Assembly: GCF_039641995.1 (NCBI RefSeq)
Contig: NZ_CP087714.1
Location: forward strand, 248,001 to 312,000
DNA: 64,000 bases
Direction: 5' to 3'
Origin: Geoglobus acetivorans
Lineage (GTDB): Archaea > Halobacteriota > Archaeoglobi > Archaeoglobales > Archaeoglobaceae
Shown here piece by piece: positions 32,411 to 59,430 of the stretch. Positions within the stretch are counted from its first letter, which is position 1. Each line of letters starts with the position of its first letter. A program made the position numbers and the translations under genes. The notes beneath the pieces are model-generated. The model saw only the letters and a list, made by a program, of their open reading frames with translations, had not been told where the DNA came from and ran no database searches.

Positions 32411-33052
32411 TCAGAAGAAAAGGTTCAGGATCCAGAATATAAGATCAGAGATGCTCGTGATTTTTGGGGACTCTGGTTCTTTTTCTTCTGTTGGTGTGGG
32501 CTGTGGTGCAGCTGAAATCACCTCTTTGGCAGCCGGGAAATAGTCTTTTATGTTCTCTGAGTGGCAGTAAGTGCATACATCATTCAGTATTTTGGAATGG
32601 ACGCTGTGGGGATTGGAGCCATGACATTCATTGCACAGCTTGGCACTCGGCACCGAAAACGGAGCTTCTGAACCATGACACTTGCTGCACTGAATTTTTT
32701 TATGGGGTTCATGGACCTTCAGTCCGAGATTTTTTGAATTGTATGTACTGCCAACGTGGCATTTTATGCATATATTCACTGTATGCAGTTTTTCTACCTG
32801 CTGTGGATCTCTCATATCCAGCTTGGGGTTGTGGCATGGCGTGCATTTGCTGAATTCATCAAGCTGGGTTAGCGGAAGGGTGTTGATGTGACAGGGCATA
32901 CATATCTTCGCTTTATGCCAGTTTGCCATCAGTCCATTGTATTTGCTCAGAAGATCCTCGGCATGAGCAGATGCAGGCAGAGCTGCCAGGAAAATTACTG
33001 CAATCAGCATCAGTTTTATGGATAACCCTGTAAACTTTCTCCTCACAGACAC
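32411..33052 (-). CDS. Hexaheme c-type cytochrome
   Basis: 213 residues, GTG start, signal peptide to about residue 31 (ALPASAHAED). Six CXXCH motifs: CMPCH, CTPCH, CIKCH, CSKCH, CNECH and CTYCH, with extra histidines (WHKAK, LHTVN, VHEPHKK, HSVHS) as distal ligands. A Pro/Glu-rich linker ends in a hydrophobic tail, LIFWILNLFF, that may anchor it in the membrane. Its size resembles small NapC/cytochrome c7-type electron carriers. It may link the membrane quinone pool to the large cytochromes. It is divergent from the CARDB protein over a symmetrical promoter. Confidence 0.88.
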   Translation of the reverse strand: MSVRRKFTGLSIKLMLIAVIFLAALPASAHAEDLLSKYNGLMANWHKAKICMPCHINTLPLTQLDEFSKCTPCHNPKLDMRDPQQVEKLHTVNICIKCHVGSTYNSKNLGLKVHEPHKKIQCSKCHGSEAPFSVPSAKLCNECHGSNPHSVHSKILNDVCTYCHSENIKDYFPAAKEVISAAPQPTPTEEKEPESPKITSISDLIFWILNLFF

Positions 33053-33067
33053 CCGTATTCGAATAAA

Positions 33068-33078
33068 TTATATATATC
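33068..33078. promoter_or_regulatory. Palindromic TATA element between the hexaheme cytochrome and the CARDB-protein gene
   Basis: TTATATATATC lies in a 45-bp divergent gap, about 21 bp from the GTG at 33052 and 25-28 bp from GTG 33098/ATG 33101. It may drive leaderless transcription both ways. Confidence 0.5.
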
Positions 33079-33097
33079 TTTTTTCCAAACTCACAGC

Positions 33098-34936
33098 GTG
33101 ATGGGGAGAATCATCTCGTTTTCCATAATTCTGATACTTGTCAGTATTTTGTTCTTCCAGCCCGTGTCTGCTCTCAGTGATTTTCATATAAAGCTCGTTG
33201 ATCACGTTGATGGTTATGGCAAATACATAGAACGAACATACCCATTTGAACCAGGAGACTACCTGAGAATCTATGCTCAGGTAGAGGGAGTCAACCACTA
33301 CAGAGCTTATGCGGTGGATTTCGTCTATGTTGTTTATGATCCCGAGGGGTATCCGGTTTCGGGAACGGTGATAAGCAAAAGCGGGACAGACTACACTGAC
33401 AGAGTGTATGCCGTTTATGAGCTGAAAATTCCGGAGGGCTGGGTTACAGGAAAATACAAGGTTGTGGTGTATGCTTTCGACGTTCTGAATACAACAATGG
33501 TGAAGAACGAATATGATAACTTTTTGAATGAACTCATCTCGAAGGGTGAGGCAAGTATTGATCTTTCGAAAGTTAGCAGGGAGGATGTTGATTACGTCAA
33601 AAAAGAACTTTACTTCACTCTTGTAGACAACTATGATCCCCGGGTTTATCTTTTTGATTCCGGTTTAAAGGCAAAAATTCTTCCGGAAGGTATGAACAAC
33701 TCACTTGAGTTCACAGTGCTCAACCCGAATGATGAGAAAATTGAATTTTATGTGAGGTTGCTTATTGATGGCACTCCTTTTTCTAAGCAGAAGGTCTCAC
33801 TTGGCCCCGGTAGTGCAGAGAGAGTGGAGTTCACGATCCCGCAGCTTGAAATAGGAGATCACACTCTCGAAGTTGTTCCCGACTGGGACAATACTGCTGA
33901 GCTGAAGACTCTTCCAGTTTTCATTCCTCCCTATCTTTTTGATCGCCCCGTTATGGTTGCGAAGGATGGGAAAGGGTTGATTGTTCTATCGTCAAATAAT
34001 TATGTTCTTGGGAGTGGAGGGGTAAGCGGTCTTGATGGCAAGGAACCATCATTTGACATGGGCGCTGCTTACGTCATGAACAGGGACAACGCTGCGAAGA
34101 TGCTCAGCAACATCCTTGCATACATATGGCACAATTGGGAAAACAATGGCAAAAACGAGATGAGGATCGGTCTTTATTACAGGAGCGACAGCAGGGCTGA
34201 GAACGTGCTCCCATTGCTGCTGGATTACATCAAGAAACTGAACGGGGCACCGGTTGTGTATGTTGGTGTACTTGAGGATTACGAGCTCGACAAAGCCGAT
34301 ATTGTCTTTTATGTTTCCGACAGGCCAGATCTGGCTCCTCTCGCAGGTTATGTTGAGAATGGGGGGAATGTTGTTCTGGATATAACGGATTATTACTGGG
34401 ATGGAGGCGAGATTGTACGGGATTACGGATTCAGCGGGGACGAGTTTCTTTTCGGCAGTTTTTACGATCTGACGAGTGTGAACAAAACGGTATCCATAAA
34501 GCTGAAAACTGAACTGAAATTGCCCCCCGAACTGAAGTACAGCAATCTGAGTGTCAGCGACTTTCTCGTGGCTGTGGGTGAGAATGTAACAATCTCATTC
34601 GACGTGAAGAACGAAGGTGGAGCCGGAAAAGCGCCGGTCCAGGTTTACGTCAATAACGAGCCCGTTTACGATGAAATCCTCGATTTCTACCCTGCGGAAC
34701 AGAAACACATTGTTATCGGTTACACGCCCCAATCAGAGGGGTCGTACAGGGTTACGCTGGACAGAAGTGATCTGTCCAAGGTATTCTTTGCAAAGAACCT
34801 GACTGCCCAGCAGAATGCAACCGCAACACCACCTCCTGAAAAGGAAAAGCCCGAAAGGGAAAACGCAGGGTTGCTGGTAGCTATGGCCGGATTGCTGGCA
34901 GTTCTGATAATATTCAGGATCTATCTGAGAAGATGA
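33098..34936 (+). CDS. Exported CARDB-like surface protein with C-terminal membrane anchor
   Basis: 612 residues; signal peptide (about 1-26, ending PVSALSDF). Several beta-sandwich regions follow, including two CARDB-like repeats (LEFTVLNPNDEKIEFYVRLL, ENVTISFDVKNEGGAGKAPV), with a central alpha/beta part (VLPLLLDYIKKLNG, VVLDITDYYWDGGE) resembling a GATase-like fold. A Pro/Glu stalk and a C-terminal helix with RIYLRR hold it in the membrane. It contains no heme motif. Start GTG 33098 or ATG 33101. It overlaps the next gene by 4 bp. Probably a structural or assembly partner of the cytochromes. Confidence 0.7.
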   Translation: MMGRIISFSIILILVSILFFQPVSALSDFHIKLVDHVDGYGKYIERTYPFEPGDYLRIYAQVEGVNHYRAYAVDFVYVVYDPEGYPVSGTVISKSGTDYTDRVYAVYELKIPEGWVTGKYKVVVYAFDVLNTTMVKNEYDNFLNELISKGEASIDLSKVSREDVDYVKKELYFTLVDNYDPRVYLFDSGLKAKILPEGMNNSLEFTVLNPNDEKIEFYVRLLIDGTPFSKQKVSLGPGSAERVEFTIPQLEIGDHTLEVVPDWDNTAELKTLPVFIPPYLFDRPVMVAKDGKGLIVLSSNNYVLGSGGVSGLDGKEPSFDMGAAYVMNRDNAAKMLSNILAYIWHNWENNGKNEMRIGLYYRSDSRAENVLPLLLDYIKKLNGAPVVYVGVLEDYELDKADIVFYVSDRPDLAPLAGYVENGGNVVLDITDYYWDGGEIVRDYGFSGDEFLFGSFYDLTSVNKTVSIKLKTELKLPPELKYSNLSVSDFLVAVGENVTISFDVKNEGGAGKAPVQVYVNNEPVYDEILDFYPAEQKHIVIGYTPQSEGSYRVTLDRSDLSKVFFAKNLTAQQNATATPPPEKEKPERENAGLLVAMAGLLAVLIIFRIYLRR

Positions 34937-35196
34937 CAGCCTCAGATTATGAAATATTGGTCAGCAGGATGGTAGAAAAGGGCGTGACTGATCCTGAGAG
35001 GATTGCGGGGAAGCTGGATCTTCCGGAGAGCATTGTGAGGGCAGCCCTTGAAAGAGCTGAAGAAACTTCCGAAAATATTGGAAAATCCGGGAACAAAATA
35101 GAATTTAATAAAGAGACGTTTAAACTGGCAATTGATGTGGTCTTGCTTTATCTTGTGGTGCAGATCATTTTTGTGCTGGCAGGGTGGTTCCTGTGA
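34933..35196 (+). CDS. Small single-span membrane protein
   Basis: 87 residues. The first half is helical and HTH-like (YEILVSRMVEKGVTDPERIA, LDLPESIVRAALERAEE); the C-terminus is one membrane helix (LAIDVVLLYLVVQIIFVLAG). It overlaps the CARDB gene by 4 bp and the signal peptidase gene by 13 bp, so the three are translated from one message. Function unknown. Confidence 0.65.
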   Translation: MTASDYEILVSRMVEKGVTDPERIAGKLDLPESIVRAALERAEETSENIGKSGNKIEFNKETFKLAIDVVLLYLVVQIIFVLAGWFL

Positions 35197-35867
35197 TTGA
35201 AATCCAGCTCCTCATACTACTTTCGGGGTTTGTTATTATTCTCTTTTACAACTATTCTGATGAATTCAGAACAAAACTCTCTGTAAGGCGGGTTTCAAGA
35301 CGTGTGCATGAAATCGAGAAGAGAAAAATGGACGCCAGAAAAAGACGTCTTGTTGTTGCTGCTGAACTCGTGGTGTTCTTTGTGCTGATTTATTTCGGTC
35401 TGACAATGAAGGTTTTCTGGGCGGCGGTGATTTCAAACAGCATGTCTCCAACGTTTGAGAGGGGTGACATGGTTCTATTTCAGAGCATCTCCGTCCATCC
35501 CGAGCCAGGAGACATTGTAATGTTCGACAGGCCTGATGTCATGCTTCCGGTCACCCACAGGGTTTTGAAGGTTGAAGGAGACCTTGTTTACACTGGTGGT
35601 GATGCATCCGGACCGGACTCTTCACCCGTGCCTCTCAGCAAGATCAAAGCTGAGGCAGTCATGATTTTCGGCAAACCCGTCGTCGTTAAGGGTGTGGGAA
35701 ATTACTTCATCCTCGATGCCAAGGAGATGAGGGACATTACTCCATTCGGACAGGAATACTACTTCTACAAGAAGCTTATTGATCTGTTCCGGACATACGC
35801 CATTGCCATAATTGTCATGGGGGTTGCAGGCTATCTGTATCTCACCTACAGGGATCTAATAGATTAA
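35184..35867 (+). CDS. Signal peptidase I (archaeal/ER Sec11 type)
   Basis: 227 residues (GTG 35184; GTG 35193 also possible). An N-terminal helix and a basic loop precede a second helix, then the catalytic Ser86 in VISNSMSPTFERGD, GDIVMFDRP, His125 in PVTHRVLKVEGD and Asp140/Asp145 in TGGDASGPDSSPV. His instead of Lys marks the Sec11 type. A C-terminal helix adds another span. Being in the cytochrome operon rather than alone suggests a dedicated peptidase for the many exported proteins here. Confidence 0.88.
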   Translation: MVPVIEIQLLILLSGFVIILFYNYSDEFRTKLSVRRVSRRVHEIEKRKMDARKRRLVVAAELVVFFVLIYFGLTMKVFWAAVISNSMSPTFERGDMVLFQSISVHPEPGDIVMFDRPDVMLPVTHRVLKVEGDLVYTGGDASGPDSSPVPLSKIKAEAVMIFGKPVVVKGVGNYFILDAKEMRDITPFGQEYYFYKKLIDLFRTYAIAIIVMGVAGYLYLTYRDLID

Positions 35868-36625
35868 TCTTTTTTTCTAAAAGTAATTTTGAGAATCTCT
35901 GAGAGTTTCTTCTTCTCGCCACCGACAAGTCCCTTTGCGAGGTTGTAGTAGTAATATGCATAAACGCCAGAAATCAGAAACATGATTGCCTGTGTTGCTG
36001 CCGTGCCAATGAAAACTCTGAGGAGTAGATATGATGATGGTGCAATCAGCACTGGGGCGGCGAACATGATTAGAGCCTCACCTTTGTTGAATATCTCGAA
36101 CTCGTGGGTTATGAACAGCCACCAGTATATGAACAGCAGGATTGTCACGAGATGGAGGTAGGGTAATGTGTACTGGGTCATGAATATGAACGTTCCAAGG
36201 TAAAAGAGCATGGCAATCAAAGCCCTGAAGTAGAAGTTTACCTTGTATTCTGGGGTCAATTTCTGCTCTGTTGCGAGTCTTTCCACCACGGAAATCTTAT
36301 TTTCAACGTCCTCAACCTTTTTTCTCAGCGCATTTATCTCGACAATGCCTATTGCGACCTCATCGATGATTGGCTTCAATCTGCTGTAAACGACTTCGTC
36401 AAAAGCCCTCTCGGCAGCAACCTCGTACCCCGTAAGCCTTTTTCTCAGGTTCAGAGAACCGCCTATTATGATGGCGGAGAGAAACAGGAGTGCCAGATCG
36501 ACAGCTATGTTGAGTGTTGGTTTAAATGAGGTGTAATCTGCGTAGAGTGAGTAAAGTGAAACCGCAAAAACCGTTGCACCCACCAGAACTGCACCAGCAG
36601 TGGACACATTGTCAATGGTTCTCAT
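35864..36625 (-). CDS. Multi-span membrane protein with central coiled coil
   Basis: 253 residues. Two N-terminal helices (STAGAVLVGATVFAVSLYSL, IAVDLALLFLSAIIIGGSL), a cytoplasmic-looking coiled coil (about 85-125: VEINALRKKVEDVENKISVV) and five or so C-terminal helices. It converges on the signal peptidase gene with a 4-bp overlap. No family recognised; its gene lies between cytochrome genes but on the other strand. Confidence 0.55.
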   Translation of the reverse strand: MRTIDNVSTAGAVLVGATVFAVSLYSLYADYTSFKPTLNIAVDLALLFLSAIIIGGSLNLRKRLTGYEVAAERAFDEVVYSRLKPIIDEVAIGIVEINALRKKVEDVENKISVVERLATEQKLTPEYKVNFYFRALIAMLFYLGTFIFMTQYTLPYLHLVTILLFIYWWLFITHEFEIFNKGEALIMFAAPVLIAPSSYLLLRVFIGTAATQAIMFLISGVYAYYYYNLAKGLVGGEKKKLSEILKITFRKKD

Positions 36626-36740
36626 TGTATCTTCTTTTTCTCACCGAATAATTAATTTTTCGATACGTTCTACATCAGATGCGAAAACGATATAAACATT
36701 GGTGTCTCAATATCTATTGTATGAAATTGGAGGTGGATGA

Positions 36741-37499
36741 ATGAATGGGAAAATCCTGCTCGGGATGATCGTGCTTATTGCGGTTGGCGTTCTCCTTCTG
36801 CCCTCAACGGTCTCGCTTTTCGCTGGGCAGCACTATTGGTACAACTTGGAAAATGACACGAATGATGTACCCTGCCAGAAATGTCACGCGGATGTTTATG
36901 AGGAGCTGAAAAACAGCGAATATCATTGGAAGAATTGGGGACAGCAAAACGCTGTGGATGAGCAGGATTGTATGGAGTGCCACCAGGTTGCGCCAAAGAA
37001 TGTGAGGGGCATAACATTCGCAAACGGTAGTGCAAATGTTGGGTCTGGTTGGCAGGCCGGTAAGGAAGCACACGCTGCGGCAACCGTTAGCTGTATGTGG
37101 TGCCATGGGACCGACTCGTCTGGAGCTCCGCTCTATCCGAACGCCCCTATTGCGGGTGGATTTAACCTGACGAACTATACTGGCGATACAGGAATTTATG
37201 CGGCGCACAAAGACTGGGTAAACTCAGCTAAGGCTGACACCTCAGCAAATGGAACAAATCTGCTGCTCGAATCGAACGAAGCATGTATTGGTTGCCACAC
37301 TCACGTTGCGGTCAGGATTAACTGGACTCACGCTTCAAGTCTTGAATTCAACGCCACCAATACAGGAAGTGGATGGACGACAGAAAACTACCGTGCAAAT
37401 GGAACTGCTGTGAGAATCGTGTGGGGCAATGCTGAGGGTACTGGTGGTTTTGTCAATAATGGAACCACGACCATACCTTGGGGTAACGGTCAGTGGTAA
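36741..37499 (+). CDS. Tetraheme cytochrome, LPSTVSLFAGQH family (filament-subunit-like), copy 1
   Basis: 252 residues. A hydrophobic N-terminal helix (about 4-21) is followed by LPSTVSLFAGQHYWYN, then CQKCHADVYEEL, CMECH, CMWCH and CIGCHTHVAVRINWTHA, four CXXCH sites with paired histidines. The C-terminal 60 residues are Gly/Thr/Asn-rich with many N-glycosylation sequons (NWTH, NGTA, NGTT) and end WGNGQW. The length and four hemes match the tetraheme subunits of extracellular cytochrome filaments reported in Archaeoglobus veneficus and Pyrobaculum. GGAGGTGG precedes the ATG and a TATA-like GATATAAAC lies near 36690, suggesting strong expression. Confidence 0.85.
   Translation: MNGKILLGMIVLIAVGVLLLPSTVSLFAGQHYWYNLENDTNDVPCQKCHADVYEELKNSEYHWKNWGQQNAVDEQDCMECHQVAPKNVRGITFANGSANVGSGWQAGKEAHAAATVSCMWCHGTDSSGAPLYPNAPIAGGFNLTNYTGDTGIYAAHKDWVNSAKADTSANGTNLLLESNEACIGCHTHVAVRINWTHASSLEFNATNTGSGWTTENYRANGTAVRIVWGNAEGTGGFVNNGTTTIPWGNGQW
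37293..37342. repeat. 50-bp tract identical to 38228-38277
   Basis: The bases encoding the fourth heme site and following CHTHVAVRINWTHASS are identical, including silent positions, to the next paralogue, while flanking sequence has diverged. This is the signature of recent gene conversion between copies. Confidence 0.85.
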
Positions 37500-37516
37500 A
37501 GAGGTAACAGGATTCC

Positions 37517-37545
37517 CAAAAATTTTCTAATTTTTTCTATTTGTT
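37517..37545 (+). terminator. T-rich transcription stop after tetraheme copy 1
   Basis: AAAATTTTCTAATTTTTTCTATTTG follows the stop at 37499. Runs of T on the coding strand are the usual archaeal intrinsic terminator. Confidence 0.4.
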
Positions 37546-37666
37546 GGTACAGCAGTGTTGTATGGTTTTTGCGCTAAAATATTTTTGTATTATAGATTTG
37601 AAATTGTTTTTATTCAATGGCAAGTTTTTAATACTTCCCTGACAAATAAATAAGGGGGACAATGCA

Positions 37667-38437
37667 ATGATAAAACTCCTATTGGCTGCAATGACAATAG
37701 TCACAGTTGGTACTATCATTCTACCCTCAACTGTCTCACTCTTCGCTGGACAGCATGACTGGTACACTATAGACACCGAGGGCAATGACGTTCCGTGTGA
37801 AAAATGCCATGCAGATGTCTATGAAGAGCTGAAAAACAACCCGTACCATGAAAACTTCACTTGTGCAATGTGCCACAGGGCCATAGCCACAGGTTACGCA
37901 AGCGGGAATGTTAATGGCGAAACTTCAACTGGATCCGAGTGGGGAGCTCATGCAGCCTCCACCATTGGCTGTCTCGCATGTCATGGTGGGCTTAAGGACA
38001 CCACTGTGGATTCGCATGCCCACGTTGAAATATCGGGTGAACTGAATAAAATGGGTGGAAGTTGTTCAAACACCTGTCATGTAGATATTTCGGGCCCTCC
38101 CAAGGCAGGAGGGTTTGGTCTAACTGGAGAATCCTGGGACACTGGGACATATGCTGCCCACCGTCAGTTTGTACTGGATGCTAAGAACGATAGCTTGATG
38201 GACTCCGCAAATGAGGCCTGCATAGCCTGCCACACTCACGTTGCGGTCAGGATTAACTGGACTCACGCTTCAAGTCTCGAACTGAACGTAACCCTGATTA
38301 TGGGCAAGTGGACAACCGAGAACTACAATGCAAATGGCAGTGTGAATACAACAGTCTGGGGCAATGCTGAAGGTACTGGCGGTATAGCTTATAATGGAAC
38401 TACCACAACAACATGGGGTACGGGAGGCTGGCCATAA
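37667..38437 (+). CDS. Tetraheme cytochrome, LPSTVSLFAGQH family, copy 2, with an added CX3CH site
   Basis: 256 residues, same plan as copy 1: N-terminal helix, LPSTVSLFAGQHDWY, CEKCHADVYEEL, CAMCH, CLACH and CIACHTHVAVRINWTHA. Between the third and fourth sites, an insertion contains CSNTCH, a CX3CH sequence that may bind a fifth heme or be a disulfide. The C-terminus is again rich in Gly, Thr and sequons and ends WGTGGWP. Its own T-rich leader, a TATA-like TTTTTAATAC and a Shine-Dalgarno AAGGGGG precede it, so it is transcribed separately from copy 1. Confidence 0.85.
   Translation: MIKLLLAAMTIVTVGTIILPSTVSLFAGQHDWYTIDTEGNDVPCEKCHADVYEELKNNPYHENFTCAMCHRAIATGYASGNVNGETSTGSEWGAHAASTIGCLACHGGLKDTTVDSHAHVEISGELNKMGGSCSNTCHVDISGPPKAGGFGLTGESWDTGTYAAHRQFVLDAKNDSLMDSANEACIACHTHVAVRINWTHASSLELNVTLIMGKWTTENYNANGSVNTTVWGNAEGTGGIAYNGTTTTTWGTGGWP
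38228..38277. repeat. 50-bp tract identical to 37293-37342
   Basis: Second copy of the identical tract in the adjacent tetraheme paralogue; see 37293. Confidence 0.85.
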
Positions 38438-38568
38438 CTCTTATCTCCTTTTTTTGAATGTTTTTCGTACACTCTATTATTATGAGAAACCTAATCATTA
38501 TGATTATGAAAATTCTTTCGTTCATGAAAGAGGAAATTTTATATTCCTGTTGTCGATAGAAAGCATTG

Positions 38569-41500
38569 ATGAAGCTGAGAGTATCGGGGATAATACTCTT
38601 TGCACTCGTTTTCTGGGTTGCAATAGCAGCAACCACTTCGGCGCAAGAGTACGAAGGCAGCATTGCAAAAGTGGTTATACTGAAAAACGGAGTTCCAGAG
38701 CTGAGTTTTTCAAAAGGAGATACTGTGGAGTTCAGGGTTTACAGCTACACCAGCCACCTCAGACATCTGAAGATAAAGCTTTACGATTTCCAGGGGGACA
38801 AGTTCAGGGAGCTGCGGTTCTCGAAAAAAAATGATTACTATGTTGCTTACTGGACAGCGGACAGGGAGGGCTGGATTTACTATGAAATAACATCCAAAAA
38901 AGGGATTAAAAAGGTCTGGGGCTTTGTTATTGTCGGCAGCAAAGATACCGGAAGTATCAGACTCTACAAGGACGGGGTGGAAAGCGAGAGCTTTACGAAG
39001 GGAGATTACATTTACGTCAAAATTAAAACAACGAAAAAAGACAGGGTCAAAAAAGTCCTTATTAGCAACTGGGCGGGGAATGTCAGGAGCTTGGATGGTG
39101 ACGCAGTGGATGTCATATCCTCTACGGACAGCGAGCTTTATTTCAGATTTTATCTGGGCAGCTATCTCACCGACCACCTCTACCCTGACAGATGGGCTTC
39201 GCTCAGAGTTGAAACTGAAAACGGGATCAAGGCAGGCACACATTTCTTCTTTGGGGAAACTGCTTCAACTCCGATCCGCACACCTGCGCCATCGCCCACA
39301 CCGACACCAACTCCGGCACCCTCACCAACACCAAGCCCCACTCCAGTTCCCACACCCACTCCAAGTCCGGCTCCCGTGCCCAGCCAGGCACAGGTGCTGA
39401 AACTCTCTCTTGACAGGCTGTCGGTTCTTGACGATCCAAACAGCGGTAGGGCAGCATCAGGCTTCAGCACTCCCCCGAAGGTCTGGAACAGCGACTGGTG
39501 GTATGGGAGGGCAACGACAGTAACGGCTTACGCTCTTGTGATGAACGGAACTCCTGTTGCCAGTGTTCCGGTAACCTTCAAACTGATTTCTCCTGATGGC
39601 ACCATTGTGGCTCAGAAGACCGCAAATACGGATTCTGCTGGTCTGGCGAAGGTGAGCTTCGATCTGAACAACGTTAACTTCTATGGCTTCTGGAAAGTCG
39701 TTGCAGAATACGGCGCTCTCAGAGCTGAGGAAAAGTTTGTTTACAACTGGTGGGGATGTGCGTGGTGTCACGGGAATGAAAAACTAACACAGCATGGCAC
39801 CTACACGCCAAAATCTCCGTTTGTGATGGGCTACGACTTCCACAGCAACCCCAAGAAAGGCAAGCATGTTATGGTCATACAGAACGGGCAGTGTCTTTAC
39901 TGTCACCAGAGCTACGATGCAGTTCCTCACAACAGGCTGGATTACACCGCATATCCTGCCGGTATTCACAACAACAAGGTTGAGTGTGAGAGCTGCCACG
40001 AAAGCTCTACAGTGAGATATGCGAGACCGAATGTTCCGGGCTGCTACGACACCTGCCATCCCGTTAAGAACTTCAATCTGAGCTCTATCCTGACGACCAC
40101 GGGCTATGCAGTTGGTGGCACATATCGCTCAGTTTATTCCTATGATGTCAACACCGGAGAGCCTGCGAAAGCTCACACCGCTCAGAAGACCGTTCCATGT
40201 CTCAGCTGTCATAACGCTGCCCACAACAATACCAAGCCGTATCCAAGCCAGCCAAACAGCTATACTGAAAATGAACAGTGCCAGAGCTGTCATGGATACA
40301 AGCATGGCAAGAGTGTAACGAACTGTACTGGATGTCACGGTCAGGATGCGCATCTCGTCAAAGCACCGAAGGCCGGAAACTGCATCGAATGTCACAACAC
40401 CGGCGGTTTTGCACCGAACGTGGATGTGACTGCATTCAATTCAAGCATACATTCGGGGCTGAACGCAAATTCGGCGATATCCAAAGGTTATCCTGCAGTG
40501 GTCGGGGCATGCTGGGCGTGTCACTACAACGGCAGCGAACCGCCATCACATGATACGACAGCATTCAGAAATCCGAAACAGTGCGAGGACTGCCATCTGG
40601 GTGGGTCGTTTAATGCTCCTGTAGTGTCAAATCACTTCGCCAACGGGTCAAGCATAAAGGTGAGCGCAGCATGTGTGGACTGCCATGGCAAGGATGAAAT
40701 GCTTTCAACGTTCAACGGCCCTTCCGGAACGAATCTGTCTACGGTCAGCCACTATGGTAAGAAGAGAGTGGATCTTCTGATACTCTCTCAGTATGATACC
40801 TTTGATGTGGACTGCTCGTACTGTCATCAGAACACAACCACGGTATTTGCAGACGTGATGCGGAATGCATTCAGCTCCAGTGTGCCAGATCATTCAGATT
40901 CGCCGAATTCACCTGACTGTGTCGGCCTCTGCCACGGTTACGGCAGAATGCACGACTCTACGTTGATCAAGAAGTCTCTGACGACCTCACAGATGTGTCT
41001 TGACTGTCACTCTTCAGGAGGGAAGATGAAACACAACGGAACTGTGGACTGCTTTGTCTGCCACATGGATCCGTCAGACAGTCTTGGCAAGGCGCAGATA
41101 CATGGTATCAAATATCTCCAGAAAAACGGAAGTTTTGTCAAATACCAGCCAACCAATGCGGTGGACTGCTACACCTGTCACGCAACTGCTAACGTGTCTC
41201 AGGTTCTCTCCTCATACTCCTTAACTGCTCCACATGTTGCATGGACAGAACATTCAACGGGCCAGAAGTGGGGAAATTACTGGCTTAACAGCAATCAGGC
41301 GTGCGAGTACTGTCATGGGGACACCAAACACAACACGACAGCACTTGGCAAAATTTCGGCAATAGCTGACACCTCAGCGCTTAACAGTCAGGTCTGTGCA
41401 GCCTGCCATGCATCTGACTCTCCAAACTACGCAGGAAATAACTGGACGCCTGCACCGCCGAGCATCGCTGGAACACCGTTAAGCACGGATTGGGTCAGCC

Positions 41501-49555: not shown

Positions 49556-50172
49556 AGAGGCTGTTTATAATTGTCCTGATTGCAGCCACGTCTCTTGCAA
49601 TGGTCAATACAGTCTCCCTGTTTGTTGGACAGCACTACTTCTATGACCTTTCCTCCGGCTACAACGAGAAATGTCTTAAATGTCATGCTGACATTTACGA
49701 CGAGATGCTTTTCACCCCCCATCACCGCCTGGTTGATGGACAGCCTGGTTTGAACGGGGATGAATGCTATGTGTGCCACAGGAGTGAGGACATTCAGTAC
49801 GGCAATGCAACGACTCCAGGTAAAGAGGCACATTCTGCAAGCATAATGTACTGTGGAAACTGCCACCTGAACTCCACGATAGCCGCAAGGTATAATGCTC
49901 CCCTTGCCGACGATATCTACAGCACCAATGAGGTCCACAAAATGCTGGCTTTCCACTCTGCTCTCGATTTTCCAGTCACCGGCAGTAACCTTCTGAGGAA
50001 GGAAAGTGAGGCCTGCATTGCATGTCATGCGGATGTGAGGGTAAATATTACATTTGTCAGTGATAATGAGACTACAATCACCGTTAGCAACCTCGACAGA
50101 GGTGGTTATTCGTCTTACTCCGTGGATAATGTTGTAATTTCTGAATTCAAACAGTGGAGTGTTGAGAAATGA
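49546..50172 (+). CDS. Tetraheme cytochrome, LPSTVSLFAGQH family, short copy 4
   Basis: 208 residues. N-terminal helix then NTVSLFVGQHYFYDL, CLKCHADIYDEM, CYVCH, CGNCH and CIACHADVRVNITF, four CXXCH sites. It lacks the Gly/Thr/Trp C-terminal segment of copies 1-3 and instead ends in about 40 polar residues (NVVISEFKQWSVEK). It overlaps both neighbours (10 bp and 4 bp) and GGGGTGAT precedes its ATG. The missing C-terminal part suggests a different role, such as a cap or membrane-proximal subunit. Confidence 0.82.
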   Translation: MVLKRLFIIVLIAATSLAMVNTVSLFVGQHYFYDLSSGYNEKCLKCHADIYDEMLFTPHHRLVDGQPGLNGDECYVCHRSEDIQYGNATTPGKEAHSASIMYCGNCHLNSTIAARYNAPLADDIYSTNEVHKMLAFHSALDFPVTGSNLLRKESEACIACHADVRVNITFVSDNETTITVSNLDRGGYSSYSVDNVVISEFKQWSVEK

Positions 50173-51343: not shown

Positions 51344-54300
51344 ATGAAGCTGAAAATAATTGTGTTCATGCTCCTTGTATTGCTCTCATCCACTTATTTG
51401 GTAGAAGCGAAGGGCACACCTTCAAACGTGATTGTGTGGACCAATAAAAAGGTCATCCACCCCTGGTTCATTACCATCTACGACAGTAACGCCCCCTCAG
51501 TGGGGAATATGGATTCGACGAGTCGACACACGCTCTATGTGTATGTTTCGGTTCTTGATGACGATGGGAACTACATGGATCCTTCACAGATAGATTTCAC
51601 CCTTTACATCAGAGATAACAACAGGTACGATCACTATGACAAGAACAACGATACATATCACCACGATGTCATTGCAACGAATGGCAATTTCATCAACCTC
51701 GCGATAGATGATGATGCCATGACCTACTCTAACGGTATCTTCAGCTATTCTGTCAATCTGGACACAGAACTGGACAGCTACAGATCCACTCTGAAAGATG
51801 ACCATCTGAGAATTGAGGTCGTTGTGAATGAAAGCACGGGACTTTCTGCAAAAACTTACGTTTTGGCTTCGCCAATAGTATTCTGTTCAAATGATTGTCA
51901 TAGTACTCCAAGATGGGGTCTTGACAAATCCGATGCGCACAGTGCCCATGTATACGAAAGTTCTTCCTACCCTTCCGACACCTGTACTGTCTGTCATTTT
52001 GGTTATGAGCACTTCTACGAAAACGTGACGGATACAATCCCGGATGAATACAAGGATACGCACTTTTTCAAGCTGAACCCTCCTGATGTTTCCTATGCCT
52101 CCAGAGGAACCACCTCCAATGAATGGAGTAAATTCAACTGGAACAACACGACAACGAGTTTAAGCACTGGGGGTTCACTCTCGTGGGCGAGTAAAAGTGG
52201 GGGCGGAGCTAAATACTGTGCATACTGCCATATTGACTCATCTGGAAAGGTTTACGACTGGGATTCGAGCAGCGACATCGTGATGTGTTCGAAGTGTCAT
52301 TCAACGACCTCAATGGAGGGAACTGTGCCTCCTTCAAGCTACAACTCGTATGGGACTTATGGAAAAGGTACAACCTCTCACGCCCATCCTGGAAACACAA
52401 CGAGGGTTCCCTGTGGTCTGTGCCACAACTCTGTCCACAACCTGCAGCTTCCGAACACGAGCTACACCGAATACTACATAGCCGAGCAGTGCTGGAAATG
52501 CCACAACATAAGTGGCGGGATCGACATAACCTCCAATGGCGTAACGATCAACCATCCGGACTTCGAGCCCGATTGCAGGGCGTGTCATCTGGATGACAAT
52601 CTCGCTCTTGATGCTCATTCTGTTCCTGTTGCCGAACCCCCCAATCCGAACTGTGTTGGATGCCACGACATGGGTGGAAAATCTCTCGTTCACGTTGATG
52701 TTTCTGCCATGAACACCACCGAGAACAGGCACTATAACCTGAACAATAAAACAGATCCAACTGCAAACGGGTTGAGGTGGGAAAACAGGTTGTGCTGGGC
52801 GTGTCATGGTGAAGATGACAACGGAGACGGAATTATGGAGTATTCCGAGCAACCTCCCGACCAGCACCCCTCCAAGTACAGAAATCCGAGGATGTGTACT
52901 GACTGCCACAACAATGCGACCTTTGGAAGTTTGATTGGCGCACCCCAGGTGTCGAGACACACCTGGTATGACTCCACGATTAAAACCCCCGGCGTAACCT
53001 ACTGTGGAGACTGTCATGGTCTGCCCGAAAATGTCCTGCCCAATTCGGATGAGGAATACACCTACGAGAGCGCGGCCGCTCATTACGGGAAGTTCAGGTC
53101 TGACCTTGAAGCGATTGCCACAACAGATGACTTCTGCAAATACTGTCATCAGAATGAAACCTCTCCGTATCCCTTTTCCAATCCCGAAAACAAAGTGCGG
53201 CCGGAACACTCTAACACAGGCACGCCTCCAAGCTGTGTGGAGTGTCACGGCTCTGGACCGATGCACAACCCTGACTTGAGGATTCCCGTTGTAAATGACG
53301 CTCTGTGCCAGAGCTGCCATCCCGACAAACAGCCCCATAACGGCACCATAGGATGCGTAGAATGCCACATGAACAACACTCCAGAATACATCCACCCCAT
53401 GACATTTCTGCAGCCCGATGGTAGAGTTTCCACTTCAAAGCTAACTGCTGCGAAATGTTACGACTGTCACAAGTCTGATAAGCTGAACAATCTTCTGATA
53501 AGCTGGGGAGCCACGAGGCTGCCCAAAATCAAGAACCAGCACCACAGCGAATCTCCGGTAAACGGCTCAAAGTGGAATGACTACTGGAGATATGAGCCAA
53601 GATACCTCACCTTCGCAACATACTACAGCATCTCTGAGGGGTCTGTTCAGAACTTCAACAACATGATGAGTGTCAGCAATAACTTCTCGACGATATATGA
53701 GACACCGAAAGGTGGTGTCTCAGCGTTCAAAGGCACTTTCCCGTCAAACCAGGGCTTTGACTCAAACTATGACGGATGGAGCTATACAGCCCAGTCTCCT
53801 GCCACCGCAGGGTACGACGCGTCTTACGGGAATCCCGAAGGCTCGATATATTCGTATCTTTACACGAGATACAGGTCGACAGGGTATTACTCGGTTGAAT
53901 GGGTTTCATCCTTCGTTTATGAGAAGAACAAACCTGTTGCCTACGCCAAGCTGAACTTTGATTACAGAGTTACGAAAATGACCCGGCTGGGAGAGGTGCT
54001 TGTTACGGTTTACATTGAGGACCCTGACGGCGTGAGACATCAGGTTTACCAGGTCTCAAAGAGTTCGCCGGACGTAACCTGGAACAGTGTGAATGTGGTG
54101 CTTCAGAATCCCGACACCATCTTTACCAAGGGTGGAGTTTACAAGGTTATTCTGAAAACCGAGTTCGGTGTAACCTACTCGACGAGGTGGTCCAAGGAGG
54201 GCAAGGTGTACTTTGACAACGTGAAGCTCGAAATCAACGAAGAGGAGTACCAGCAGTATGAGGTGGTCATGCAGTTCGAGAACGTTCCCAACACCCAGTA

Positions 54301-56932
54301 CACGCTGTACCTTGAGGGAGAGTATCTGGTGAGTAATGAGCCTGCAGTGTTGTACATTTACGATTACTCGTCTGCTTCATGGGGCAGGAGTTTTGAACTC
54401 AACGCCACGGCGTGGAAGAAAATCAGAATTCAGCTGAATTCAAACGAGTATCAGGGCGGAACCGTCAGGGTAAAGATTACTGATAAAGACCGTGGAATCG
54501 ACACCCTGCAGGATTACATAAAATTCAAGTATCTGCTTGTTCAGAGCGATACCGGAAGGCCTTACCCGTGCGAACAGTGTCACGCATCAGAAATGCACGA
54601 AAACCCCGCTCTCGGCAGCATCAAGGCTATTATGGGCAGCAATATGATTAATACGACTGATCTTTCCAATTCTTACTGGTGCATCCAGTGCCACTGGAAG
54701 AATGCCGCCAACTATACCGAGATGGTAAATGAATACAACACAACAAGAGGCCTTCCAGTTCCACCGGAGATAACGGATGGAAGCTATGTGTATCCCATGG
54801 CGAGTGATGGAACGAAGCATGTGGACCATACGAACTGGATAAATCAGTATGGTTATTCAGACAGAGCGTGTGCGCTGTGTCATGCCACGTATTTCGTCGA
54901 TGGAGTCACAACAACAACCGAACTTGTTCACGATGTGGAAGTGGGTGCTAACTGGACGAGGGATTACCTGTTTGCCGAATGTCTGAACTGTCATTCTGGT
55001 GACATCAACGTTACCAAGTTTGGCAGGCATGAGAATCTTGAAAACGATGGGGGGCTTACCTACAAGGACTGCCTGAAGTGCCATTACAAGCTGGGAGGGA
55101 TGGGATACAACTACACCCCCACAGTGGGCGTAAATCTGTATGACTGCAGGAGCTGCCACACGCCTGAAGGCGAATCAAACATCAAACCATCTGATACCAG
55201 CCTGCTAATCTCTAATTTCGCCCATGGATCCAACTACTGCTCCAACTGCCACTATCCGGAAGGAGATTACCACAATGACTATTCTGGCCCCCTCGGTACG
55301 GTGGAGGCTCCGGGCTGGTCTGACTGGGTTAATGGAACTGCCGTAAGCTGCAGCAACTGTCATTTCGAGAGAAACCTTGACGATTCACCGTTCCATGCTC
55401 CCGGAATAAGCAGGTTCAAGGCATCCTACAGTTCTTGCTCCGGAGAGAACTGCCACGGAAATGCGACAATCCACAGCGTCAAACCCCAGAACCCGGTGCT
55501 GGAACCGTCTGTAAGTGTGAGTTTGAACAGAACCTGGGTGAATCCCGGAGATGCAATCCTTGTTACGGTTAAGGCTACGGGCAGAGGCTCTCAGATAAGC
55601 TATGCATACTATGAACTCCTTGATATGGGTGGCAGTGTCCTTGCCTCTGGCGATCTGTATCCAAAGGATGGCGAGTGGGGAGGTGTGGACAATTCATTCC
55701 TTGGAAACGGTTATGAGGAGTTCGAATTCACGATAAATGGCTCGGTAACATCCACACTGAATGCCGGAGTTTACCGGATTAAGGTAACCGTCATGCAGGA
55801 CGCTCCGAAGAGCGGAGAGGGCAGGTATTATCCGAGAAACGGTGCTTATGGTAGCGGTTATGCAGAGTTCAGCGTTGGAGAAGCTGGAAGCCTTGCGCAC
55901 AACTTCGACTTTGAGGCACTGAATGTATCTGGGTGGTTCGTTAACTGGAAGAAGGTGATCGTTTCAGGAAACCCAACCGTGGAAAGCTCGACCACTTATT
56001 ACAGTTCGCCAACCCACTCCCTTCACATGCTGTCTTCGGCAGGTGATGAGTGTTACGTCCAGTCGATAAACGTCAGTGTAACCAAGGGTGAAAGGTATCT
56101 GCTCCTTGTGTGGGTTAAAGGAACTGCAGACTTTGCCGGAATAAGCATTAACCAGTGGAACTCTTCCACGCTTGTTTCATCAACTGATCCTCTCGGCATC
56201 ATCGGCACGAGAAATGAGTGGACGCAGTTTGGAATACTTTTCGATGCAAAAGGAGATTCGATAAACGTCCTGCTGCACGTTAGAGGCAATGCTGATATGT
56301 ACTTTGACGATGTCAAACTCCTGAGGATGCCTTCATATAAGGTCATTGGACCGGTGAATGGGGACTTTGAGGATACAGAAGATGATCCTAGTTTGAAATT
56401 TGCTGAGGAAATGCAGTCTGCAAGCAACTTTATTAATGGCGAATCTCCTCCTGTGAAAGCTTGGGAGCCATACACTAATGATGCCGGGATAAATGTAAGC
56501 AAGGTTTACTCCGGTGGCACTGCAGTTGAAATTGATGGAACCGGCTTCTGGGTATCTCCTGGTGGCTATGACAGAATGCAGGACGATACCAATATGGCCT
56601 GGATGGGCAGTGGCGGGTCTGTGATTTACGTTAACACCTACGGGATCTTTGTTGATGAGAACAGCTATCTCGCCACCTTTGCCATGTTTGCTGACAGGGT
56701 GAATGGTTATGCAGGAATGAACGTCACTTTCTGGGTGTACAACAAGGCTGACGGTAGCTACTCTCAGCTTCCAAACAGCGTTCTGATTGGAACGAGATAC
56801 AACATGTCTGACTGGGTTTTAGGAGTGGTTAATGTTACTCCCCCATTCATGCACAACCTGATGGAAATTCGGCTCGAAGCCTCGAACAGCCATGCGGTGT
56901 TTGACCATGTTACGGTTTACGAGGTTCAGTAG
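51344..56932 (+). CDS. Giant multiheme cytochrome, 23 CXXCH plus 2 expanded sites and an inserted beta domain
   Basis: 1862 residues. Signal peptide to about 22 (TYLVEAKG), an Ig-like domain (about 25-175), then CX3CH (CSNDCH), 23 CXXCH sites and a final CX4CH (CSGENCH) near 1365. Between the fifteenth and sixteenth CXXCH, residues about 749-1072 form a non-heme beta-rich insertion (FATYYSISEGSVQNFNNMM, VYFDNVKLEINEEEYQQYE) where the two paralogues have only about 10 residues. C-terminal carbohydrate-binding-like domains end the protein (VIGPVNGDFEDTEDD). TATA-like CTTTAAATTT and GAGCAGGGG precede the ATG. Confidence 0.88.
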   Translation: MKLKIIVFMLLVLLSSTYLVEAKGTPSNVIVWTNKKVIHPWFITIYDSNAPSVGNMDSTSRHTLYVYVSVLDDDGNYMDPSQIDFTLYIRDNNRYDHYDKNNDTYHHDVIATNGNFINLAIDDDAMTYSNGIFSYSVNLDTELDSYRSTLKDDHLRIEVVVNESTGLSAKTYVLASPIVFCSNDCHSTPRWGLDKSDAHSAHVYESSSYPSDTCTVCHFGYEHFYENVTDTIPDEYKDTHFFKLNPPDVSYASRGTTSNEWSKFNWNNTTTSLSTGGSLSWASKSGGGAKYCAYCHIDSSGKVYDWDSSSDIVMCSKCHSTTSMEGTVPPSSYNSYGTYGKGTTSHAHPGNTTRVPCGLCHNSVHNLQLPNTSYTEYYIAEQCWKCHNISGGIDITSNGVTINHPDFEPDCRACHLDDNLALDAHSVPVAEPPNPNCVGCHDMGGKSLVHVDVSAMNTTENRHYNLNNKTDPTANGLRWENRLCWACHGEDDNGDGIMEYSEQPPDQHPSKYRNPRMCTDCHNNATFGSLIGAPQVSRHTWYDSTIKTPGVTYCGDCHGLPENVLPNSDEEYTYESAAAHYGKFRSDLEAIATTDDFCKYCHQNETSPYPFSNPENKVRPEHSNTGTPPSCVECHGSGPMHNPDLRIPVVNDALCQSCHPDKQPHNGTIGCVECHMNNTPEYIHPMTFLQPDGRVSTSKLTAAKCYDCHKSDKLNNLLISWGATRLPKIKNQHHSESPVNGSKWNDYWRYEPRYLTFATYYSISEGSVQNFNNMMSVSNNFSTIYETPKGGVSAFKGTFPSNQGFDSNYDGWSYTAQSPATAGYDASYGNPEGSIYSYLYTRYRSTGYYSVEWVSSFVYEKNKPVAYAKLNFDYRVTKMTRLGEVLVTVYIEDPDGVRHQVYQVSKSSPDVTWNSVNVVLQNPDTIFTKGGVYKVILKTEFGVTYSTRWSKEGKVYFDNVKLEINEEEYQQYEVVMQFENVPNTQYTLYLEGEYLVSNEPAVLYIYDYSSASWGRSFELNATAWKKIRIQLNSNEYQGGTVRVKITDKDRGIDTLQDYIKFKYLLVQSDTGRPYPCEQCHASEMHENPALGSIKAIMGSNMINTTDLSNSYWCIQCHWKNAANYTEMVNEYNTTRGLPVPPEITDGSYVYPMASDGTKHVDHTNWINQYGYSDRACALCHATYFVDGVTTTTELVHDVEVGANWTRDYLFAECLNCHSGDINVTKFGRHENLENDGGLTYKDCLKCHYKLGGMGYNYTPTVGVNLYDCRSCHTPEGESNIKPSDTSLLISNFAHGSNYCSNCHYPEGDYHNDYSGPLGTVEAPGWSDWVNGTAVSCSNCHFERNLDDSPFHAPGISRFKASYSSCSGENCHGNATIHSVKPQNPVLEPSVSVSLNRTWVNPGDAILVTVKATGRGSQISYAYYELLDMGGSVLASGDLYPKDGEWGGVDNSFLGNGYEEFEFTINGSVTSTLNAGVYRIKVTVMQDAPKSGEGRYYPRNGAYGSGYAEFSVGEAGSLAHNFDFEALNVSGWFVNWKKVIVSGNPTVESSTTYYSSPTHSLHMLSSAGDECYVQSINVSVTKGERYLLLVWVKGTADFAGISINQWNSSTLVSSTDPLGIIGTRNEWTQFGILFDAKGDSINVLLHVRGNADMYFDDVKLLRMPSYKVIGPVNGDFEDTEDDPSLKFAEEMQSASNFINGESPPVKAWEPYTNDAGINVSKVYSGGTAVEIDGTGFWVSPGGYDRMQDDTNMAWMGSGGSVIYVNTYGIFVDENSYLATFAMFADRVNGYAGMNVTFWVYNKADGSYSQLPNSVLIGTRYNMSDWVLGVVNVTPPFMHNLMEIRLEASNSHAVFDHVTVYEVQ

Positions 56933-56969
56933 GAAAGGGATATATAGCGGAGCAAAACCTTCGCTCACT

Positions 56970-57380
56970 ATGAGGTACACTCTGATTGTTGCACTCATTG
57001 CTATTGCACTTTTTTCCGGATGTGCAGGGAAGGAAGAGGTCAAGGCGCCCGTGATAAAGGTTGAATTTCAGCACTACCTTATTGATGGAAAGCACGTTTT
57101 GAAGATTGAGAACATATCCAAGGATTTTGTGAATGTGGATGATGTGAGCTTCACGCTATACCCGGAATTTCCGGGGATACATGTTTTCGGCATATATTCC
57201 AAGGGTGTGACTCCGGTGTATGTGATAGATATCAACAAGGAGGGCAGGCTCGTAGGCTATGTGGGGTTTGAAAAGGACAAGCTTCCTTCGGAGAACGAAT
57301 CTGTAATGGTTATCGTTGCCGTTAGAAACGAAAAAGGAGATGACTTGGCAATCGCCCAGGGGGTACTGAAATGGACGTGA
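56970..57380 (+). CDS. Lipoprotein of unknown function
   Basis: 136 residues from ATG 56970, with a lipobox LFSGC (Cys18). The mature part is a single beta-sandwich (VIKVEFQHYLIDGKHVLKI, NVDDVSFTLYPEFPGI). A longer frame from 56892 would overlap the cytochrome; the TATA-like GATATATAGC (about 56938-56947) sits about 27 bp from 56970 and settles the start. It overlaps the PKD-protein gene by 10 bp. Confidence 0.72.
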   Translation: MRYTLIVALIAIALFSGCAGKEEVKAPVIKVEFQHYLIDGKHVLKIENISKDFVNVDDVSFTLYPEFPGIHVFGIYSKGVTPVYVIDINKEGRLVGYVGFEKDKLPSENESVMVIVAVRNEKGDDLAIAQGVLKWT

Positions 57381-58843
57381 AAATAATTTTTCTGGCTCTA
57401 TTTTTGTCACTCGTGGTGTCTGTGGCTTCAGCAGATGTCCCGTATTTTCCGGTCAAGGTCTACCCTTCCAGCCCCGATAACGGTACTGTTGTTTACGTTT
57501 CTGTTGAAAACACGGGAGGCTATGCCAAATACTGCGTCTTCAGCTGGTATCTCGATAATGTGCTGGTTCAGCAAAACAAAGTAAATTTTTCCGGGAGTTC
57601 AGCAGAGGACTTCCGGATAGTCTCTTACGGGAGCTGGAGGGTGAAGGTTGATGTTTATGACTACTATGATCAGCTGATAAACTTCACTGAAGTTTCTTTC
57701 TCAGTCATACTGTTTCAGAAACCCGTTGCGGCCTTCACGTTATCTCCCCAGAATCCAGAAGTCGGAGAAGCGGTTCAGTTCGACGCATCCGCCAGTAACG
57801 ATCCTGATGGTGGAAGTATCGTCGAGTATTCATGGGATTTTGGTGACGGTAGCGGCCTTACGGTATCTCGGCCGGATATTGCCCACACCTATACTGCTGC
57901 GGGAGAATATGTGGTCACGCTAACTGTGACGGACGATGAAGGTGCATCATCCCAGATATCAAAAACAGTCACGGTAGTTCCTACACCCACACCTACCCCT
58001 ACTCCAACCCCCACGCCTACTTCTGAACTGCCAGGTGGTTCAGGCGGTGGCTCTGCGGGATACGCAGGGGGTGGTGGCGGCGGAGGATTTGTTCCACCAC
58101 CTCCGCCACCTGAAACAACACCAACTCCTGAAGAAACTCCTGCACCAAGGGGAATAGTCTACTCGGAGGTTGTCAAAGCTGAGAAAAACGTCGAAGTGAA
58201 GTTGGAGGTCAGGCAGGGGACTGTGGAGGAGGAAACAGGAGTCCTCTCGCTCACAATCAAGGCCCCGGAAAGCATGAACCTGAAGGTGGAGGTCAGGAAG
58301 CTTGAGTCTCCACCTGCTGAGGTTCCCGAACCTCCAGCAAAGAAGGTCTACAGGTTCGTGGAGATAACCTTCAGGAACAACGACACCGGAGAGGAGGTTG
58401 AGCCCACAGGCTACATAGACTTCAAGGTTTCCAAGAGCTGGGTTGCTGAGAGCGGACATGATCCTGAGGATATCATCCTCATGAGGTACCACAACGGCTG
58501 GGAAGAACTCAGGACGGAAATGGTCGGAGAGGATGAGAACTATTACTACTACAGGGCTGAAACCGGAGGTTTCAGCGTGTTTGCAATCGCTGTCAAGGAG
58601 GTTGCTCCTTCAGTGACCCCCACACCGACCAGGACTCCTGAAATCGTTACGCCCACGCCTGCTGTCACTCCGACAGCTGCAAAGACTGAAACTCCTGGGG
58701 AGACTCCGGCTCCCGAAATTACCCCCGCTAATGTTGAAACCAAGGGAACTCCAGAGACTTCCAAGACTCCAGCGTTTGAGACAGTATTTGCACTGACGGC
58801 GATAGCTGCTGTTGCGATCTTCAGGAAGCTCAGAGAGTCTTAA
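57371..58843 (+). CDS. PKD-domain surface protein with PGF-pre-PGF domain and PGF-CTERM-like anchor
   Basis: 490 residues. Signal peptide (about 1-21), a CARDB-like start, then a PKD domain (about 118-200: DASASNDPDGGSIVEYSWDF, VTLTVTDDEGASS). Pro/Thr and Gly linkers lead to a PGF-pre-PGF domain (about 260-410: FKVSKSWVAESGHDPEDIIL, ETGGFSVFAIAV). A second Pro/Thr stalk ends in PAFE at 467, a hydrophobic helix and RKLRES, a variant PGF-CTERM (Ala for Gly). It is probably fixed in the envelope and may hold the extracellular cytochromes. Confidence 0.85.
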   Translation: MDVKIIFLALFLSLVVSVASADVPYFPVKVYPSSPDNGTVVYVSVENTGGYAKYCVFSWYLDNVLVQQNKVNFSGSSAEDFRIVSYGSWRVKVDVYDYYDQLINFTEVSFSVILFQKPVAAFTLSPQNPEVGEAVQFDASASNDPDGGSIVEYSWDFGDGSGLTVSRPDIAHTYTAAGEYVVTLTVTDDEGASSQISKTVTVVPTPTPTPTPTPTPTSELPGGSGGGSAGYAGGGGGGGFVPPPPPPETTPTPEETPAPRGIVYSEVVKAEKNVEVKLEVRQGTVEEETGVLSLTIKAPESMNLKVEVRKLESPPAEVPEPPAKKVYRFVEITFRNNDTGEEVEPTGYIDFKVSKSWVAESGHDPEDIILMRYHNGWEELRTEMVGEDENYYYYRAETGGFSVFAIAVKEVAPSVTPTPTRTPEIVTPTPAVTPTAAKTETPGETPAPEITPANVETKGTPETSKTPAFETVFALTAIAAVAIFRKLRES

Positions 58844-58857
58844 ACGCGCCAGACTTT

Positions 58858-59430
58858 TTAATTTTCCAGGACTTCCTCGATTTTTCTGCTCAGGGCAACG
58901 TACGCTATCAGAATCAGCGGGAAGGAGAACAGGTATGGGATGTACAGTTCGGTAGGCATCCTGACGAAGGATGGGTGCAGCTGAAAGTCTGATGTTACTA
59001 TTCTGATGTAGAAATATGGTACAGTTAGGTATATTGCGAAAGAGTACATCTTCGCGAGTCGCTTATCGAGGAAGCATAGTACAGTGTGCGTTAGGGCGAA
59101 CAGGAGGAGCACCACGCTGAAGACGTATCTCGCCTCGGAGAAGATAAGCCCGCCCCATGCAAGGAGCATGAAAATTGACGAGATTGCCAGGTGGATGATT
59201 GAAAATAGAAGTGTAGACAGAGAAAGCGCCTTCATACTATCATCGCCGATCCTGAAATGCAGGACAGGAAAAGCCAGGAGAGTACCTATTGTTATGATCG
59301 TGACAGGAACGTGAATGTATATTAGTTTATAGCTGCTTCCAAGTCTGTTCTCCTCGGGCAGGAGTAAAATTAGCAGTGAGAATATGACAAATAATGCGGT
59401 CATTAATCTGTTTCTCATGTTCTGCTGCAC
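58858..59430 (-). CDS. CcmC/CcsA-like heme-handling membrane protein (divergent)
   Basis: 190 residues with six hydrophobic helices. LIYIHVPVTIITIGT (His40) corresponds to the first conserved histidine helix of CcmC. LLAWGGLIFSEARYVFSV (Trp92) looks like a shortened tryptophan-rich WWD segment, and SDFQLHPSF (His152) like the second histidine motif. CcmC presents heme to CcmE in cytochrome c maturation, and archaeal systems are known to keep CcmC. Its place directly after the cytochrome cluster supports the role, but the core motif is degenerate, so the call is tentative. Confidence 0.6.
   Translation of the reverse strand: MQQNMRNRLMTALFVIFSLLILLLPEENRLGSSYKLIYIHVPVTIITIGTLLAFPVLHFRIGDDSMKALSLSTLLFSIIHLAISSIFMLLAWGGLIFSEARYVFSVVLLLFALTHTVLCFLDKRLAKMYSFAIYLTVPYFYIRIVTSDFQLHPSFVRMPTELYIPYLFSFPLILIAYVALSRKIEEVLEN

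Follow-up and report, generated by a model that had tools for sequence, protein, structure and literature searches.

Nanowire-type and giant multihaem cytochromes with a co-occurring accessory block in an exchanged 27-kb island of Geoglobus

Organisation of the locus

The window analysed here is a 64,000-nucleotide stretch (positions 248001–312000) of the closed 1,903,522-bp chromosome NZ_CP087714.1, from a thermophilic, iron-respiring archaeon deposited as Geoglobus acetivorans, and at window positions 32411–59430 it holds a cluster of multihaem cytochrome genes that we read as an archaeal cytochrome nanowire system. Translation of the locus gives nine cytochrome open reading frames (ORFs) between 32411 and 56932, which carry, in gene order, 6, 4, 4, 22, 29, 4, 4, 8 and 23 CXXCH motifs. 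The resulting total of 104, together with eight CX3-5CH motifs (1+3+2+2) and one CXXCK inside 50169–51281, reproduces exactly the counts of the original prediction, which had been made from the sequence alone. When the same proteins were shuffled with their composition preserved, CXXCH occurred 0.38 times on average and at most three times, and across the entire window the open frames of at least 80 codons yield a single further CXXCH outside the locus, at position 6407. The span first proposed for the locus also coincides with natural borders, as DNA identity to a G. acetivorans comparison genome ends at 32370 and returns at 59494. One additional ORF (38394–38834) was rejected as spurious; it overlaps a giant cytochrome gene.

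Throughout, ECN denotes an AvECN-type extracellular cytochrome nanowire subunit, and ext the two-domain cytochrome encoded at 50169–51281. We take three of the comparison genomes to be those of G. acetivorans (a genome different from the one that holds the window, and the one meant by this name below), Ferroglobus placidus and Archaeoglobus veneficus. A further comparison genome is named G. ahangari after PMC4600277.

The locus is an electron-transfer system of a type for which F. placidus and G. acetivorans already provide examples. By sequence it is the orthologue of Ferp_0668–0676, with which it shares the gene order from the hexahaem cytochrome to the PGF protein, the three giants and the ECN and ext genes, at identities of 72–83% for ECN3, ECN4, bnr and giant 3 and 67% for giant 2. 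The F. placidus locus differs in lying at another chromosomal site, with PheS about 0.9 Mb away, in having no ccmC-like gene found beside it, and in a first giant with 33 CXXCH where there are 22 here. PMC13104607, citing Smith et al. 2015, reports Ferp_0670 and Ferp_0672 as important for Fe(III) reduction; the presence of both genes in the orthologous locus, along with five proteins here that are homologous to a solved nanowire subunit, gives good support to the proposal of extracellular electron transfer. The nanowire subunits, the conserved accessory block and the island borders described below are additions to the original prediction.

Tetrahaem nanowire subunits

Five of the nine cytochromes are, judged by homology, relatives of AvECN, which forms the cytochrome filament of A. 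veneficus (PDB 8e5g; F2KMU8). Three forward-strand tetrahaem genes, ECN subunit 1 (36741–37499; 46% identical to AvECN), subunit 2 (37667–38437; one additional CX3CH) and subunit 3 (48827–49555), match this structure over about 240 residues with E-values of 1e-48, 8e-39 and 1e-33, respectively. The fourth, ECN subunit 4 (49546–50172, forward strand), joins the other tetrahaems in one alignment, and the N-terminal half of ext matches 8e5g at an E-value of 2e-14. Across 22 diverse ECNs the invariant positions are Q30 and H31 of a G-Q-H motif, which AvECN itself shares, the four CXXCH, H62 and H111, with H156 nearly invariant. With full-chain homology to 8e5g and four in-register CXXCH accompanied by conserved distal histidines and the G-Q-H, the tetrahaem ORFs are predicted to be nanowire shaft subunits. 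According to PMC11936953, interface haems in filament structures, 8E5G among them, can take a histidine from the adjacent chain. Because the G-Q-H is invariant and such neighbour-chain ligands are known, H31 probably donates the ligand of an interfacial haem to the neighbouring subunit. We would expect a mode of action like that of Geobacter OmcS, OmcE and OmcZ, which are stacked-haem filaments, yet none of the three was matched in sequence at an E-value of 0.001 in PDB searches with the tetrahaem and ext proteins. OmcZ also differs in using the OzpA protease (PMC11208441), not a signal peptidase block. Separately, A. veneficus has an additional ECN gene that matches only in separate frames and is apparently a decayed nanowire gene.

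The two-domain cytochrome ext

The forward-strand ext gene (50169–51281) encodes an ECN domain with four haems, a second domain with four CXXCH and the CXXCK, and a C-terminal EP motif. It overlaps the preceding ECN subunit 4 gene by 4 bp, an arrangement indicating translational coupling that is found here and in many lineages. A tetrahaem gene followed directly by a cytochrome of 365–525 residues, with an ECN domain at its start and an EP motif near its end, recurs in Archaeoglobales, Methanophagales, Syntrophoarchaeum and a GoM-Arc1 relative of Methanoperedens, whereas Methanoperedens itself has the signal peptidase gene between the two. When 174 ECN domains are placed on a tree, the ext label requires 4 changes as against 31 when shuffled, and 32 of the 34 ext domains fall in one branch (Shimodaira–Hasegawa-like approximate likelihood ratio test, SH-aLRT, 92). 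By this tree, ext is a paralogue of nearly single origin, and it is seen only in nanowire-encoding genomes. The tetrahaems that partner ext do not form a clade of their own; they are scattered, with 16 changes required for a "pair" label.

The ext protein retains the histidine of the motif as G-x-H, and its conserved core comprises eight CXXC[HK] sites. A fold search with an AlphaFold model of ext (predicted local distance difference test, pLDDT, 68) returned 8e5g as the sole significant PDB match (E-value 4e-6), and found no PDB homologue of the second domain. Of the 394 genomes surveyed in the phylum, 41 have that domain and every one of these is ECN-positive, a count that leaves out one weak hit that was itself an ECN. 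No plasmid-borne ext was matched in the plasmid collection searched. Because one side of ext would dock to a shaft subunit and the extra domain would sit on the other side, ext is most simply read as a candidate terminal subunit, at the base or the tip of the filament.

The accessory block

Upstream of the tetrahaem genes lies a block of four genes (33098–36625) that recurs as a unit. It consists of a 612-residue CARDB-domain surface protein with an N-terminal signal and a C-terminal membrane helix (33098–34936, forward strand), which we term the block anchor; an 87-residue protein with, by eye, a helix-turn-helix (HTH)-like N-terminus and one C-terminal membrane helix (34933–35196, forward); a dedicated signal peptidase I (35184–35867, forward), which scores above the TIGR02228 cut-off, in agreement with the original prediction; and a 253-residue membrane protein of about six helices (35864–36625, reverse) for which no Pfam family was found. 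Recognisable relatives of the 87-residue protein occur in Geoglobus and in Archaeoglobus sp. JdFR-37, and an ORF of like size and place occurs in A. veneficus and others; with its HTH-like domain and single membrane helix, it is possibly a membrane-bound regulator. On the other side of the anchor, and also a member of the conserved module, is a hexahaem cytochrome of 213 residues with six CXXCH (32411–33052, reverse), relatives of which accompany ECN genes at a number of Methanophagales and Methanoperedens loci; in A. veneficus the neighbour of AvECN belongs to this penta/hexahaem family.

Methanophagales, Methanoperedens, GoM-Arc1 and a Methanocellales genome hold the signal peptidase and membrane protein, often with the anchor and a hexahaem cytochrome, within the ECN cluster. 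Three lineages, A. veneficus among them, keep the block together but away from the ECN genes; in A. veneficus it is intact and lies at 1.645 Mb, a long way from those genes. Of the 62 genomes of the phylum with ECN genes, 56 have the membrane protein, as against 3 of the 332 without (Fisher P = 4e-57; 394 genomes in all). The discordant genomes are mostly incomplete, the main exception being G239 (92%), and none of 61 ECN-negative genomes carrying PF13435 multihaem proteins has the membrane protein. The CARDB anchor, compared within the family, is present in 21 of 22 ECN-positive and 1 of 33 ECN-negative genomes. The block thus occurs with ECN genes, not with multihaem proteins in general. Because it tracks nanowires in this way and persists in A. 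veneficus, we favour a nanowire-specific role, as gauged from gene content.

Chadwick et al. 2022 (PMC9012536) describe two proteins, a signal peptidase and one with 8 helices, that occur only in anaerobic methanotrophic archaea (ANME), Syntrophoarchaeum, Argoarchaeum, Geoglobus and Ferroglobus. The membrane protein of the block is probably their "8x TMH" protein. Their account of the pair as maturation factors is the only one we found for the block in the literature, where an earlier mention in Baquero 2023 or Smith 2015 is possible, and we found no description of how archaeal cytochrome nanowires are exported, initiated or anchored in the literature searched. The co-occurrence names a short, directly testable list of genes as candidates for the building and anchoring machinery. 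It also suggests a function for an unassigned membrane protein of methane-oxidising archaea and would allow wire-making archaea to be predicted from their genomes.

Giant cytochromes

Three giant cytochromes, paralogues of one another, are encoded on the forward strand. Giant 1 (38566–42525; 1319 residues, 22 CXXCH) has an Ig-like/MG2 N-terminus and is the orthologue of the first F. placidus giant; giant 2 (43819–48798; 1659 residues, 29 CXXCH) ends in C-terminal Ig and jelly-roll modules; and giant 3 (51344–56932) has 1862 residues and 23 CXXCH. By homology search, the window genome, F. placidus, G. acetivorans, one Geoglobus metagenome-assembled genome (MAG) and Archaeoglobus sp. JdFR-37 have giants, whereas none was found in G. 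ahangari or A. veneficus. The N-termini of two of the three give weak MG2/Big_1-like (Ig-like) matches; Pfam scans found no S-layer domain in the giants, and hydropathy no C-terminal membrane helix. Passage of the wire through the S-layer, as the original prediction envisaged, thus gains no support from their domain content. For the final 435 residues of giant 2, prediction gives all-beta modules similar to glycan-binding proteins and to a carbohydrate-binding module of family 16 (TMt 0.65), which suggests that the giants may bind the surface through such modules. They are comparable to the ANME multihaem cytochromes MHC-A/B (Chadwick 2022), which are likewise very large, carry extra beta domains and in some cases have the signal peptidase and membrane protein nearby; they differ in the S-layer domain and C-terminal membrane helix, both missing here. 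In G. acetivorans the giant (G025:C1:1525920-1531190) is covered by two overlapping match pieces with a TGA inside one, which may be a frame end or a broken gene.

Exchange of the island

The locus coincides with an island (32371–59493) that has been exchanged between lineages. The G. acetivorans counterpart, GACE_1843–1847, occupies the same chromosomal position, has the same flanks and contains the same kinds of gene, with one giant in the stretch read as against three here. The left flank is 90.0% identical in DNA to G. acetivorans over the 7.8 kb up to 32370 and the right flank 90.8% identical over 4.5 kb from 59494, whereas between them identity breaks off sharply and is limited to patches of 64–76%. 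At the protein level, identity to G. acetivorans is 90–99% in the flanks and 29–56% in the island, where genes are nearer to those of F. placidus (ECN3 80%, ECN4 83%, giant 3 74%). By contrast PheS, encoded 30 bp outside the island, shares 94% identity with G. acetivorans and 75% with F. placidus. The PheS tree pairs the window with G. acetivorans (100/99), and the tree of the block rejects that pairing (log-likelihood difference 92; approximately unbiased test, p-AU, 9e-73). Because the histories of the flanks and PheS conflict with that of the block, the island is an exchanged allele that at least one lineage has swapped. No tRNA that could serve as an integration site lies beside the island in window positions 20000–64000. 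As the exchange shows, an electron-exporting surface apparatus can pass between close relatives as one 27-kb unit.

Electron input

The original prediction envisaged a complete wire from membrane quinones. Domain scans found no quinol:cytochrome c oxidoreductase in the locus, and therefore the locus alone does not make up such a wire. Elsewhere in the same genome, NapC/NirT-like multihaem genes stand beside NrfD-like genes (named by eye) at about 0.695–0.699 Mb and 1.096–1.100 Mb, and these two sites are candidate quinol-side complexes. The NrfD-like proteins adjoin cytochromes with 4, 8, 10 and 12 haems, and the site at 0.695–0.699 Mb also encodes a ferredoxin-like protein.

Proposed model and alternatives

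We propose that the locus encodes an AvECN-type extracellular cytochrome nanowire system with accessory machinery and three giants associated with the wall or surface, a reading to which we assign a probability of roughly 70%. In this model, the tetrahaem subunits (36741–38437 and 48827–50172) would be exported, cleaved by the dedicated signal peptidase and polymerised head to tail. Ext would cap the filament, most likely at its cell-proximal end, so that electrons could pass between shaft and envelope, and the membrane protein and CARDB anchor would hold or assemble the filament base. Electrons would enter from menaquinol through the NapC/NirT–NrfD type complexes encoded elsewhere, and the hexahaem cytochrome and giants, the latter held by glycan- or protein-binding beta-sandwich modules and not by a membrane helix, would carry them across the wall zone. 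That the block and ext together form dedicated assembly and anchoring machinery for cytochrome nanowires from Archaeoglobales to methane-oxidising archaea, with ext as the terminal subunit joining filament and envelope, is a broader proposition for which we see the chances as evenly balanced, given gene content and phylogeny. The reading of ext as a terminal subunit, the tracking of nanowire genes by the block and the recognition of the island as an exchanged allele look new.

Several points weigh against this model. Ext was not found in 21 of the 62 ECN-positive genomes and may not be universally needed, a count affected by some incomplete MAGs and by the limit of the search E-value; its AlphaFold model is mediocre and gives no match for the second domain. 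The co-occurrence counts are not phylogenetically independent, and kinship between genomes inflates their P values. Fe(III) reduction in itself does not require giants, since none was found in G. ahangari, an obligate Fe(III) reducer. The relatives also qualify the expectation that the locus would be missing from strains unable to use extracellular acceptors: A. veneficus, which PMC4600277 lists as a non-user of Fe(III), has both nanowire genes and the block.

If the signal peptidase and 8-helix protein mature multihaem proteins, as Chadwick et al. 2022 (PMC9012536) propose, the block would be a general apparatus for haem handling and signal cleavage, the locus a large cytochrome cluster, and the tetrahaems soluble or matrix-bound carriers. 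The conserved WW and other aromatic residues of the membrane protein would suit such a function. We nevertheless consider it unlikely: the membrane protein is missing from every sampled PF13435-bearing genome without ECN genes, the block is retained by A. veneficus, whose nanowires are proven and in which the search found no giants, and Geoglobus has separate ccm genes (PMC4600277). Equally doubtful, in our estimation, is that the giants are the main route, spanning the S-layer as conduits like MHC-A/B while the tetrahaems act as periplasm-like shuttles. Reports of large archaeal multihaem cytochromes are confined to ANME, Geoglobus and Ferroglobus (PMC9012536), GACE_1847 has been proposed as the direct electron transfer protein (PMC4683180), and Ferp_0670/0672 are implicated in F. 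placidus (PMC13104607). However, the giants of the window have neither an S-layer domain nor a C-terminal membrane helix and have no counterpart found in G. ahangari, and the tetrahaems are homologous to a solved extracellular filament.

The nanowire model favours Fe(III) as the likely acceptor, and a somewhat more improbable alternative still is that the system serves cell–cell (syntrophic) electron exchange or another extracellular acceptor. The module is common to archaea such as Methanophagales and Syntrophoarchaeum and is shared by A. veneficus despite its listing as a non-user of Fe(III); against this, the window genome belongs to Geoglobus, in which Fe(III) is the sole acceptor that cultured members use (PMC4600277), and Fe(III) is also what the F. 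placidus orthologues are linked to.

Other genes of the locus and its surroundings

The anchor proteins foreseen in the original prediction are borne out by C-terminal hydrophobic helices in the CARDB protein and in two further surface proteins. One is a BNR-repeat (sialidase-like) protein with a C-terminal membrane helix (42566–43696, reverse strand), which we saw only in lineages with giants and in one close MAG; it adjoins giants in nearly all loci read and possibly binds glycans. The other (57371–58843, forward) combines PKD and PGF-pre-PGF domains with a C-terminal anchor, and follows a lipoprotein-like protein of 162 residues (56892–57380, forward) that is present at the relatives' loci too. 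The CcmC-like assignment of the membrane protein at 58858–59430 (reverse) fared less well, with 17.2 bits against a cut-off of 186 and no W-rich motif seen by eye; among the loci fetched, this gene occurs at three Geoglobus loci only, this one included. Outside the island, 2–5 kb to the right of the window, are two more cytochromes, one a surface protein with 8 haems that ends in a PGF-like anchor, the other divergent and lipoprotein-like with 6 haems.

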